A stretch of DNA of 64,000 nucleotides from Parietichytrium sp. I65-24A (Eukaryota; Sar; Bigyra; Thraustochytrida; Thraustochytriidae), in contig BLSF01000051.1 in NCBI GenBank assembly GCA_012862575.1, forward strand, positions 62,001 to 126,000, in the 5' to 3' direction. Positions 1 to 5,999 of the stretch are shown piece after piece (position 1 is the stretch's first letter; every line of letters starts with the position of its first letter). The translations under genes were made by a program, and so were the position numbers. Below the pieces are notes generated by a model. The model had not been told where the DNA came from. It worked only from the letters and a program-made list of their open reading frames with translations, and made no database searches.

Positions 1-2491
1 TGTCTCGGTAAATATGCTGCAGCAAACGTTCCATGTCCTCCCATTCGATCAAGACTGGGTCCTTGATTGAGTCAATTCCCTTGTGCAGAAGTCTCCGCAC
101 CGCGAAGTTGCTAACGTCCGGGGTAGTCGCCAACACCCCCGCATTTAAAGAATTCTGGCATTTTTCCCATACTCCTCGTCCCGCGGAAAAGGTGTGTCCT
201 CCGGCCAAGGACCTCCGCGAGACATCGGTCTCTGTGCTTTCTGAGCTTGCTGTGGATCGGAATGACCTATTTGACCTGAACGAGTGCACGTTGCGAGCCT
301 GCGCCTTACCAACCACGCTGGGCACCTCAATTGGCCTTGAGCTGAAGGCAAACCCGCACTTGATGCTATTCCATCCAATATCCAATATAATCGGTGCGTC
401 GAATGGCATCAAAGAGGTGACCAAATCTTCGGTTGAAGACATGATGTGCCTGATCGATCTCAAAATATCGTGAGAGCAATGGCCAAGAATTTCTTCTTGG
501 GCAATGTTTCGCTTTAAATCGTTGTAGGCGGTCCAGATAGCCTTGGCATCATCCAAATCTAAAGTAAAGTTTGTCTTCGCACGACACTGCGACCAGGACA
601 GATCCTTGTTCATAATCTCCCTCTTCTCAATTGAGTATCTCCTGGACGGGCTCATGACGCCATGTCCACGGCCGAGGGTTGGGGAGCCTTGAAACGATTC
701 CGCATTCAGCCCCATCATGCTATCTTCTGCCATGCCCGGAGACACCGGGAATGCTTGTCTGAGCTTTCGCAACGCATTTGAGATCTTTCGCCGGTGGCCC
801 TTTTTAGTGATGCCCACGCCATCCAAGTCCTCTTCAGTCATTAGGGCAACGGTCTGTAGCTCATCCCAGCCATCCTCAGCAAATTTTTCGTAATATGAGT
901 CAAGATTGATTGACTCTAGCCATGACTCGACCGTCATCGACTGCAGATTCATGTAATCTTCAGTTCGCGCTGAAAGCGGCTCCACGCTGGCACCTTCATA
1001 GCTCAGCGGCGAGCGTCCGGAGTGCGGCGCCATCGCGGACGAGATCGGGGAGATTAAAGCGTCTGGACTCGGGAGAGCGCTTGGCGAAGTGCTGTACCTG
1101 TGCTTTGAGCGATTAGAGTGCGCCGAGCTGGCAGATTTCATACTCGAGTTTTTGCCCACATTGCTCATCACCAGATTTTGCTGAATTCTTTTCTTCCGCT
1201 CGCTGAATCCAGCTTTCTCAATATCGGACGGCGGCTTCAAGCTTGGCGGACCGGGACGCTGGACGGCGTACATGTGATGGACCATTTGGACATCCATCTT
1301 TGACATCTCTGAAGAGGCCAACAGTACGGCATCTTCGTCGTCTTCAAACATCAAATCGAGTCCATTAATCTGTGGCCAATGAAGGTTTGGCTCCGCGTCC
1401 AGATACAATCTCGCGTATTCTGCTACTGCGCGAAGAGACAGAATCACCTTGGGCATGTTTTGCAAATTATGTAGGTCATTCGAGTTGAATAAGAGCGAAT
1501 CTGGTATACTCATAGCGTCACTGCAAGCGCGGATGAATTTTGTGATATTCTCTTTCTCACAGAGTGGTATCATGAAGCTCTGGTCACCAGAAAAGTCTGC
1601 CTTGAAGGTGGATATGCAGCCTGGCATTAATATGTTTGCGATTCTGCAGAGCACTACGCCAGAGTGCAGGACTTCAAATAGCGTTGCGGTGTCTGTGGTA
1701 TCCTTGCGTTGCCCGTCTTCGCTTGTAAAGAGCGAACTGTCATCCAGCACCTGCTCAATCCACTTGCACGCTTCCATCTTCACTCGCAAGAATATCTTGC
1801 CTAAGTTCTCCAGATCCTCCTTTGAGTTGGCCCCTGGCTCGAAATCGTTCACGACGCCGTCCTCGGATTCATCCTCTGAAACATTCCTCGCAACGGGAGC
1901 CCGAGCCTGTGACTCCACGTACTCCACTTGCATCGCGCGGACTGCACCACTATCGCCATTTCGGGAGGCTAGCTGCGAGGCCGACTGCTCAATCTGCTTG
2001 GACCATGCTTCAAGCACAGACATGTGATTGACGTTCGCGCTTCCCGCCGTCTCCGTCTCCTCTGCTTCACTGTCCCCGCCGAACGGGCTTACCAGCTCCT
2101 CGCTCTCCTCTTCGCCACTATGTCTCCGCCCGCTGTACTCAGATCCATTCTCCTCATCGCCGTCAGATCTGCTGCGCCGGCGGTCATCGTCGGACTCTGA
2201 CCTGCCAAACCCGCTCGAATCGTCGCCAAAATCGTCTCCTTCTTGGTCGCCATCCTCCTCCAACTCCTGGTCGTCTTGGAAATCCCGTTCAACAAACTCT
2301 TCCTGTGAGCCCTGCTCCGACCCGTCGCTGCTGCGTGCGGACAGGTCTCGGGTCAACATCGGCGGCTTTGACGCAATGGCGCTCTGCGCATTGTGATGAT
2401 GATGCTCTTCGTCATCCCACCCGGAATCCACCACCCTCCGAGAGGACACCAGCGACTTGCGCAGCTGCTTGCGCAGGATTTCAGCGTCCAT
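1..2491 (-). CDS. CH + SAM + actin-related domain protein (3' part outside window)
   Basis: Reading the minus strand from the ATG at 2491 gives an uninterrupted frame of 830 codons that runs off the left edge, so the C-terminus is missing. An in-frame TAG lies about 27 bases upstream of the ATG. Residues 1-220 are acidic and Ser/Asp/Glu-rich. Residues ~239-360 form a calponin-homology domain of the calponin/IQGAP kind (EACKWIEQVL, SGVVLCRIAN, ENITKFIRAC, NMPKVILSLRAV). Residues ~519-578 form a SAM domain (VESWLESINL, DLDGVGITKKGHRRKI). From ~697 an actin fold begins: ILDIGWNSIKCGFAF matches the first phosphate loop, PSVVGK matches the actin PSIVGR segment, and IEWEDMERLLQHIY matches actin's NWDDMEKIWHH segment. 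The loop GSG of actin reads GWN here, and a Ser/Arg-rich stretch of about 35 residues replaces the D-loop region, so ATP binding and polymerisation may be altered. A cytoskeletal scaffold role is inferred. I do not recognise a characterised protein with this domain order. Confidence 0.85.
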   Translation of the reverse strand, partial: MDAEILRKQLRKSLVSSRRVVDSGWDDEEHHHHNAQSAIASKPPMLTRDLSARSSDGSEQGSQEEFVERDFQDDQELEEDGDQEGDDFGDDSSGFGRSESDDDRRRSRSDGDEENGSEYSGRRHSGEEESEELVSPFGGDSEAEETETAGSANVNHMSVLEAWSKQIEQSASQLASRNGDSGAVRAMQVEYVESQARAPVARNVSEDESEDGVVNDFEPGANSKEDLENLGKIFLRVKMEACKWIEQVLDDSSLFTSEDGQRKDTTDTATLFEVLHSGVVLCRIANILMPGCISTFKADFSGDQSFMIPLCEKENITKFIRACSDAMSIPDSLLFNSNDLHNLQNMPKVILSLRAVAEYARLYLDAEPNLHWPQINGLDLMFEDDEDAVLLASSEMSKMDVQMVHHMYAVQRPGPPSLKPPSDIEKAGFSERKKRIQQNLVMSNVGKNSSMKSASSAHSNRSKHRYSTSPSALPSPDALISPISSAMAPHSGRSPLSYEGASVEPLSARTEDYMNLQSMTVESWLESINLDSYYEKFAEDGWDELQTVALMTEEDLDGVGITKKGHRRKISNALRKLRQAFPVSPGMAEDSMMGLNAESFQGSPTLGRGHGVMSPSRRYSIEKREIMNKDLSWSQCRAKTNFTLDLDDAKAIWTAYNDLKRNIAQEEILGHCSHDILRSIRHIMSSTEDLVTSLMPFDAPIILDIGWNSIKCGFAFSSRPIEVPSVVGKAQARNVHSFRSNRSFRSTASSESTETDVSRRSLAGGHTFSAGRGVWEKCQNSLNAGVLATTPDVSNFAVRRLLHKGIDSIKDPVLIEWEDMERLLQHIYRD

Positions 2492-3248: not shown

Positions 3249-4960
3249 TTAAAGCTTGGACTTTTGAGGCTTGACGTTGGCAGCCGCAGTGCGCAATGGC
3301 TCGTAGGTGTTGTTCATCAACAAGTCAGTTGGTTGCACAGCATAGTGATCTGCGAGGTTTTTGAAGACAACGTGATCTGAAGTAATGGAGTAAATGTTTG
3401 GAGTACCACTCAGGGCCATGCACATGCTCAACTCTTCCTTGAAGATCTGAATCATGCGCTCCACGCCATCGGATCCGAACGCAGCTAGTGAGTAGATCGA
3501 CGGCCGCCCAATGCCCACAGCAGTTGCTCCGAGAGCGATAGCCTTGAAAATATCGGAGCCACGACGAACGCCGCCATCAACGAAAACCTGAAAGTATTCC
3601 TTGGAATAACCCGGTTCTTTTCGGAGAGCCTCCATGACCTCCGGCAAAATCTCAATTCCGGACCGAGCGGTATCAAGCTGGACAATTTTTGCCTCGTTAG
3701 AATTGATATTGCTTTGATCATCTACGGCAGCACAGCTCGATAGTAACTTACCTGGCGTCCACCGTGATTTGATAGGACAACACCTGCACAACCGTAACGA
3801 AGCGCGAGAACTGCATCCTCAGCGCACTGCACACCTTTCAGAATGATTGGCATTGTGGTGAGTGACTGGAAGTAAGCCAAGTCGTTCCAGTTGAGGCTTG
3901 GGTCGATGAAGGAGGAGATCGCGCGCGTTACACCCTGGTTACGATCAACTTTGCCTTGCTTCTCATCGTCCTTTTGTACAGAGGAAATTTCCTTCGAATA
4001 CTTGTTGCGCATATCCTTTTCACGCCTTCCGAGGTGTGGCGCGTCCACAGTAATGAACAATGCCTTCACGCCGCTCTTCTCGAGCTTTTCGATGTACTCC
4101 TTTGACCTTTCGCGGTCCTTGTTGACGTAGAGCTGAGAGAATACAATCTGATCGGGAGCACGGGCTTCGAGCATCTCATCAAGAGAGCACGAGGAGAGGG
4201 TTGGCAACATTTGCAAGACACCTTCAGCAGCGGCAGCTCTCGTCAGAGCTGTTTCTCCGTCCGGGTGAGCAAGTTTTCCGAGTGCTGTGGCGCTGATGTA
4301 GAGCGGTAAGGAGGAGTCGTAACCAAGAATTCTTGTGCTCAGATCGATCTTCTCAACGTTCACCATGACGCGCGGCTTGAACCAGACGCGTTGAAACGCG
4401 TTGTGATTCTCCCTCAAAGTGATCTCGTCGTCAGAGCCGCTCGAGTAGTACGCCCATCCCTCATTGTTCATCTTGAGCTTGGCGACTTGTTCAAAGTCAA
4501 AAGCGTTGAGCATTTGATGCTTTGATAGATTTAAGGAAAAACAGCACGGATTCGAAATAAGACGATTTCAGCGTTCGGTTCAAGTCCTCAGTCAAGTGCA
4601 ACACAGCTTTCCTCTCAAACTTACCAGACCTGGAATTTCGTTCTCGTCAATCTCGGGTGCACTCTCCTCCGTCTTTGGCGCTCGTGAGACATGATGATCC
4701 TTGACAGTCGCTGGGTCCACGGTTCCCAGCTTAATGTCAGGCGACAGCAGACGCTCGGCAATGTCCTTCGGGTGAACCTGTAAGAACGGCTCCGTGGCAT
4801 CCATGCCGGCATTTTCCACGATGATCGCCGAACCTCCCGGGTGGCTCTTATGAAACTCCGTCAGGTCATACACATTTCCGCACAGCACGACCCAGCAATC
4901 CTCGGCTGTACTATGCTTGGCCACATCCTCCATGTCCCACACTCTGTTGTTCGCTGCCAT
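3249..4960 (-). CDS. CYB2: Flavocytochrome b2, L-lactate dehydrogenase (cytochrome), three exons
   Basis: Exons are 4960-4625, 4519-3752 and 3677-3249, all in phase 0, giving about 510 residues, close to mature yeast Cyb2. Exon 1 is a cytochrome b5 domain: SWVVL-like DCWVVLCGNVYDLTEF and HPGG supply the first haem histidine, and QVHPKDIAERLL the second. Exons 2-3 are the FMN-dependent alpha-hydroxy-acid dehydrogenase barrel: NAFDFEQVAKLKM, WAYYSSGSDDEITLRENH, the lysine in IILKGVQ, and the catalytic His/Arg in SNHGGRQ, joined by splicing to LDTARSGIEILPEV. The family oxidises L-lactate to pyruvate and passes electrons through the b5 haem to cytochrome c, in yeast in the mitochondrial intermembrane space. 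The ATG at 4960 is the first ATG in its frame. No clear mitochondrial presequence is seen, unless an upstream exon supplies one. Other 2-hydroxy acids are possible substrates. Confidence 0.92.
3678..3751 (-). other. Intron 2 of the flavocytochrome b2 gene (74 bp)
   Basis: The donor GTAAGT follows the codons for HGGRQ and the acceptor TCCAG precedes the codons for LDTAR. Splicing restores the family's SNHGGRQLD active-site motif exactly, in phase 0. Confidence 0.93.
4520..4624 (-). other. Intron 1 of the flavocytochrome b2 gene (105 bp)
   Basis: The donor is GTAAGT after a Leu codon and the acceptor is CAAAG before codons for His-Gln-Met. Both junctions are phase 0. The intron lies in the linker between the haem-binding b5 domain and the flavin domain. 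Confidence 0.85.
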
Positions 4961-5999
4961 CTTTCCTTGCTCCGTCTCAAGTGATCGCCCCCTTGCGCGC
5001 TCCGCGACAACAGCTTTTCTAAAATCGGAATTCTGGTGTTCTGCCAGAAAAGTCGGACTGGCACAGTCGTCCGTCTGGAGACCTCTCGCGTCTCGAGAAT
5101 CGAGCAATTCGAACTCGCTTCGTACACCACAAGCACGGCGGTGCCACGAACACAACAGCAGCTCGCTTTACGCTTGTTTTCGCAGCTGCTCCGAGGCGCA
5201 ATATGGAGTTTCCTTCTTTCTTTCTTGCCTCGTTCCCTTCTTTCTCGTGTAACTTGTTCTCGCTTGCATTCTTTCTCGCAAGCAATTAATGAGGCTCCGT
5301 AGCGTAGCTGCTCTATCTGCTCTAGGCTCGAGACTCTCGAGACCTTGAGACCTTGAGCCTCTATGCTCTCTACGTATTGACAGTGTGTGAGGAGTACTGC
5401 GCTAACCATTGAGCCCTTTGAAGCGAAGAGCTGCGCGAAGGAAGATACGTCTACAGGTGAAGGGTGAAAGAAGGTCGCGGAAGAAGATGATTGACATGAC
5501 AGGCGACGTGGAGCTTCAAGTTGTTAAAAATCTGCTCCGAGTTGTGGATTGTGGATTGTGAATGCAAAAGTGCTCTGTCTTCTAAATGCACAATTCTCCG
5601 ATCTCCGAGTAAGAGTTTCGGTTAGACATTTTCCCGGAGAGTTTACCTTGTGGAGGATTGCTTCACTTGTCCAGATTTTCGAGATCTGGTTGCGCGCGGT
5701 TCTGCCCCCTTGCGTAATACTTTCAAGACGATCTATCGCAACTTATTTGAAGCGGGAGCTGGGCAGGAGAGGGGTTTTACTGTGAAATTAGACAAATTGA
5801 TGGCGTTTCAAATAAATACAACTCGACAATTCAGGACGCCAAAGTCTCTGCAACTGTGACTTGGACTGCACTTTTGTGCCGGCGCAGTACGTGCGTGTAG
5901 TGTACACGTGCCACACTATACACGCCACTATCATAAATGCTCTCATCATACGGAATGCGCTCTTTCTCTGTGCGCGGCTTTGCATAGTTGGTTTCCAAC
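4961..5999. other. Intergenic, 1.04 kb
   Basis: This is upstream of the flavocytochrome gene and downstream of the seven-helix gene. It has pyrimidine-rich runs around 5209-5275 and short imperfect repeats of a CTCGAGAC/CTTGAGAC kind at about 5325-5360. No credible gene is seen. Confidence 0.5.

Follow-up and report, generated by a model that had tools for sequence, protein, structure and literature searches.

The 64,000-nucleotide stretch of Parietichytrium sp. I65-24A analysed here (the window; positions 62001-126000 of contig BLSF01000051.1, abbreviated C51, in a genome of 42.5 Mb in 172 contigs) holds at its left edge, on the minus strand, a gene that joins a calponin-homology (CH) domain, a SAM domain and an actin fold in one protein. 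We propose, with a probability of about one half, that this protein is a SAM-assembled scaffold with a pseudo-actin as docking domain and the CH domain as adaptor. The residue changes in the actin part suggest an actin-related protein that does not polymerise and probably does not hydrolyse ATP. To our knowledge actin folds nearly always occur alone, and an actin-related fold in a CH-SAM scaffold offers a natural test of the uses of the actin fold after the loss of polymerisation and hydrolysis. It also raises a direct question: can a SAM polymer display actin surfaces in a row?

In the window the open frame spans positions 2..2491 (830 codons, minus strand) and runs off the left edge. Completed on the same contig (L009:3223-7491, minus strand), it reads from ATG to TAA and encodes 1422 amino acids. 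The window thus carries the 5' part of the gene (1..2491, residues 1-830), and the other 592 codons lie to its left, as far as the gene end at C51:60223; C51:60226-64491 is stop-free throughout. A preliminary description of the window part had listed an acidic N-terminus, a CH domain, a SAM domain and the start of an actin fold, in that order. A Pfam scan of the completed protein bears this order out, with each family matched in one stretch: CH (PF00307) at residues 263-358 (window 1418..1705; 9.4e-08, 32.7 bits against a cut-off of 26), SAM_1 (PF00536) at residues 518-577 (761..940; 2.5e-15, 57 bits against 23) and Actin (PF00022) at residues 699-1158 (1.3e-54, 185.8 bits against 27). Only residues 699-830 of the actin fold lie in the window (1..397). 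Rather than ending just beyond the edge, the frame goes on into the rest of the fold, which is complete: the match covers positions 6-404 of the 410 in the profile. Three domains above curated cut-offs in a single open frame are no chance result, and their union in one frame is confirmed. The N-terminal region is indeed acidic, with 26% aspartate plus glutamate in residues 1-225 (1817..2491) and 28% in residues 50-225, compared with 15% overall. The 264-residue C-terminal tail matched no Pfam family in the whole-protein scan, nor did its last 129 residues scanned alone, and for the 91 residues that run up to the beginning of the actin fold, a separate scan listed one Pfam match, under its cut-off.

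The evidence for a specialised actin comes from the actin part aligned to ten further actin-fold rows from this genome, read against position lists for the nucleotide site, hydrophobic cleft, D-loop and plug that are taken as background. Identity to the genome's conventional actin is 92 of 373 residues (24.7%), the lowest among the aligned rows; the next, C23, reaches 30.8%. The nucleotide site matches conventional actin at 9 of 26 positions (D11, G13, K18, D154, G156, G182, K213, G301 and G302), and the changes include S14W, G15N, Q137A, S155V, D157E, G158S, H161T, R210E and E214K. Phosphate loop 1 reads DIGWNSIK (residues 704-711; 359..382), with tryptophan for S14 and asparagine for G15 and with D11, G13 and K18 retained, so that the GWN noted earlier in place of GSG is found at residues 706-708. 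The D-loop is replaced by an enlarged region (residues 730-803; 83..304) with a Ser/Arg-rich first half, again as had been described: residues 730-765 are 42% serine plus arginine, compared with 19% overall. In the cleft 3 of 14 positions equal conventional actin, the smallest count among the 11 aligned rows (next come C10 with 5/14, its last columns missing, then C21 and C49 with 6/14), and substitutions include Y169 to R, L349 to N and M355 to R. The plug agrees at 3 of 13 positions, and the D-loop at none of 12 in columns that are poorly aligned. Of what marks a conventional actin, then, the complete fold is present, and the full ATP-site set (D154 is kept) and the D-loop and cleft contacts are absent. 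The actin part may still bind ATP; hydrolysis and the filament contacts are most likely lost. This accords with the earlier suggestion of a specialised, non-polymerising actin relative. For the N-terminal piece of the fold, from residue 699 and inside the window, the case comes from the Pfam profile, which joins it to the rest in one stretch: when the best-scoring solved actin was compared as a single sequence, residues 808-1084 scored 95.9 bits and residues 700-732 -2.5 bits.

Assembly would be the task of the SAM domain. Its nearest solved relatives are Caskin-1, Caskin-2, the SHIP2-EphA2 fusion chain 5zrx and Eph receptors (E down to 2.6e-21). In the alignment GWDEL stands opposite GWDDL of SHIP2, and GHRRKI opposite GHQKRI of EphA2 (both in 5zrx) and GHRKKI of Caskin. 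According to an excerpt of PMC4994250, a helix-5 glycine (G537) of CASKIN2 and a lysine one turn on (K540) are part of the tail contact, and a protein with both mutated fails to oligomerise. From their spacing we infer that G537 and K540 belong to the GHRK motif; the Caskin GHRK is matched in the alignment by G565 and R568, so the tail feature of a polymerising SAM domain is present. On the other side, excerpts of PMC9499636 describe the docking of an EphA2-derived peptide whose lysine, arginine and tyrosine contact the SHIP2 mid-loop surface at acidic and aromatic residues. A single SAM domain bearing surfaces of both types is predicted to be capable of head-to-tail joining, and the oligomerisation through SAM that had been proposed earlier is plausible.

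The CH domain is the single, or type-3, kind as judged by its nearest solved relatives. It occurs as one stretch, and its list of matches is headed by Vav, PIX, IQGAP and calponin (E 1.2e-06 to 0.0087), followed by weaker matches to fimbrin (0.56) and EB3 (0.94, 0.95). Vav, PIX and IQGAP we take to be type-3 CH proteins. Calponin is named as one in PMC7240100, whose excerpted text also states that a type-3 CH usually acts on its own, has a wide variety of partners, and is of the single kind for which the binding of actin is controversial. Because of that controversy, the premise that this CH domain binds actin is open. The preliminary description had reasoned from it that the protein could bind itself, CH domain to actin part; the single type-3 nature of the CH domain weakens this idea, which is weakly founded. 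Self-capping through ordinary actin contacts is not favoured, since the protein's own D-loop and most of the checked cleft residues are lost.

We propose that the protein works as follows. The SAM domain would link copies head to tail, and the N-terminal CH domain and the linkers would bring in signalling or cytoskeletal partners. The actin part, by profile an orphan member of the actin-related fold, would have lost its polymerisation elements and most likely ATP hydrolysis, as its residue changes suggest, and, instead of entering filaments as a subunit, would offer partners a docking surface that is stable and perhaps nucleotide-bound. A comparable role is played by nuclear Arps and by Arp11 of dynactin. 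Several points weigh against this scaffold reading. GHRRKI-like tails are common in SAM domains, which makes this one weak evidence of polymerisation, as GHRKKI and GHQKRI in two of the aligned chains illustrate. The low residue counts are not unique to the protein: C23 likewise has 9/26 and C49 10/26 in the nucleotide site, so that this count alone does not set it apart, C21, C49 and C23 have 0/12 in the D-loop, where the alignment is poor, and C10, C49 and C23 have 2/13 in the plug. No relative that could show the changes to be conserved turned up in the viral and prokaryote contigs scanned. Structure predictions run without relatives were poor both for the window part (830 residues; predicted local distance difference test, pLDDT, 37.7) and for the CH part (151 residues; pLDDT 49.6), and the joined protein is a predicted product.

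A different function can be drawn from the same domains. The protein might be an actin regulator, with the CH domain on F-actin, the actin part on filament ends or monomers and SAM-driven clustering, and so nucleate, cap or bundle filaments. We hold this to be possible but less likely. Its domain content (CH, SAM and Actin by Pfam) agrees with such a role, as does the presence of IQGAP, an actin binder, among the nearest CH relatives, and an excerpt of PMC7240100 reports that in cells transgelin-1 uses its CH3 domain to bind actin; the agreement of only 3/14 cleft, 0/12 D-loop and 3/13 plug positions with conventional actin argues against it. A class of cytoskeletal scaffold in which the SAM polymer strings pseudo-actins into a filament-like array, titrating or positioning actin-binding proteins independently of ATP hydrolysis, seems doubtful. 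A nuclear or chromatin-type Arp that acquired CH and SAM domains and acts in a remodelling complex is distinctly unlikely. In a tree of 13 rows, all from this genome, the actin part does fall beside C49, C23 and C33 (support 89/90, not starred), and it shares with C49 and C23 a D-V/I-G-x-x-R pattern in phosphate loop 2. Its branch is long, however, at 2.34 changes per column, no starred set contains it, and none of the rows is assigned to a nuclear Arp class; nor do we know of CH and SAM domains as parts of chromatin complexes. Searches with phmmer against solved structures, made with this protein and two paralogues, showed nothing but conventional actins in the best 60 of 209, 155, 157 and 158 matches, a ranking that gives no Arp class because slow-evolving actins dominate such lists.

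The scaffold reading presupposes one intact gene. Two genes, or an actin-only transcript, within one open frame would mean that the joined protein is never made, and several ATG codons in the SAM-actin linker (residues 578-698; 398..760), together with a joined transcript predicted from DNA only, allow for this. A codon score that took 11 long open frames in the window as its training set and was compared over 24 segments in six frames places the gene's frame on top in 22 segments, the exceptions being 1081-1140 and 1201-1260. The score is partly low in the linker, where segment 661-720 has 0.09 against 0.06 for the next frame, and also low in the insert (segment 721-780, 0.07 against 0.06); yet segments 601-660 and 661-720 both score best in frame, the linker runs for 121 codons without a stop, and an intron scan placed all of its 11 candidate rows elsewhere. 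That scan sought GTRNG donors with a CTRAY branch motif, and its result is moderate evidence because the motif was guessed from one neighbouring intron. Four of the candidate rows come in multiples of three bases (445-464, 910-939 twice and 1334-1408). The candidate at 910-939 combines a GTAAGG donor with a CTAAC branch and is unconvincing, because splicing it out would remove conserved actin residues, G182 among them; no candidate in the gene is convincing, and 910-939 may still be an intron. Another donor-like GTAAGG is found at codon 728, directly ahead of the D-loop insert, where none of the 11 rows begins, and the insert has 56% GC compared with 41% in the single neighbouring intron measured. 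We give little credence to a gene-model effect. A decaying pseudogene of a fusion would account for the long tree branch and the many lost actin residues, and is highly improbable in view of 1422 stop-free codons, the best codon score in 22 of 24 segments and CH, SAM_1 and Actin matches that all exceed the Pfam cut-offs.

Several neighbouring and more distant genes were seen in passing. Upstream on the same strand, window positions 3249-5155 (minus) read by eye from the translation as a cytochrome-b5/FMN hydroxy-acid dehydrogenase that contains a 59-nt intron of the form GTAAGT...TTCTAACGAG and, again by eye, a branch-like CTAAC near the acceptor; past the gene's stop, the plus strand carries an open frame of 542 amino acids. 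On the same contig but outside the window, some 118 kb away from the gene, a 758-amino-acid frame (L010:1035-3311, minus; C51:182035-184311) carries two actin folds head to tail. The two share 85.1% identity, while their identities to conventional actin are 77.3% and 74.7%; both have a shortened D-loop and G15R, and the product would be a covalent dimer. Also outside the window are an actin-related frame of 476 codons (L048; C21:226386-227417), whose proline-rich tail ends in CCVLQ, resembling a prenylation signal, and two frames of 4460 and 5583 codons (C7:19811-27643 and C66:7956-22997) with three and five PP-binding domains along them, an arrangement that suggests giant modular synthases. 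Searches of the genome for the chlorophyll a/b-binding and FabA families returned nothing at E 0.001.

Within its own genome the architecture stands alone among the frames listed. Domain matches number at least 19 for actin, at least 15 for CH (14 above the cut-off) and at least 32 for SAM, and by eye only this frame (1430 codons on C51) appears in all three lists, with no other listed frame in two. The whole protein gave 12 matches in the genome: itself, ten that fall on the actin part and a single one on the SAM part. The source of this last match is an 1107-amino-acid frame outside the window (L055:2270-5593, minus) that by eye combines ankyrin repeats, SAM and a protein kinase. Contig collections of viruses and prokaryotes, which have little bearing on eukaryotes, gave no confirmed relative: 0 of 355 pattern matches for the whole protein in viral contigs and 0 of 589 in prokaryote contigs (genome_contigs), 0 of 23 for the CH-SAM part in prokaryote contigs and 0 of 3 for the actin part in viral contigs. 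In the open-licence literature, judged by titles and the starts of abstracts, no actin-CH-SAM protein was found, in keeping with the earlier statement that no characterised protein has this order; for thraustochytrid actin-related proteins, a clam-immunity work was the only find there, by title. Should unsampled proteomes hold relatives, as they may, the CH-SAM-actin order would characterise a lineage instead of being an isolated case.

Four known systems come closest to the protein. Like Arps, it has a complete PF00022 fold with low identity, an insert and an altered nucleotide site; unlike them, it cannot be assigned an Arp class from the 13-row tree and carries CH and SAM domains, and we know of no Arp that does so. 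The single-CH proteins Vav, PIX, IQGAP and calponin are the nearest solved relatives of its CH domain, but the DH, PH, SH3, IQ and GAP families are absent from its Pfam list. With SAM scaffolds such as Caskin, SHIP2, Shank and the Eph receptors it shares the closest SAM domain and the tail glycine with a basic residue, whereas it has one SAM domain, no ankyrin or SH3 family in its Pfam list, and a junction to actin. A different likeness is offered by filactin of Dictyostelium, reported from Physarum too, in which a protist actin domain follows a long N-terminal extension (PMC2441452, PMC4758236); an excerpt of PMC5225641 gives it as identified only in Dictyostelium. The excerpted texts of these three papers mention no CH or SAM domain for filactin, and the first calls its near-conventional actin domain 'extremely homologous', while here the extension is present and the actin part has 24.7% identity and an altered active site. 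In the open-licence literature covered, filactin comes closest as a precedent for a long N-terminal extension ahead of an actin domain.
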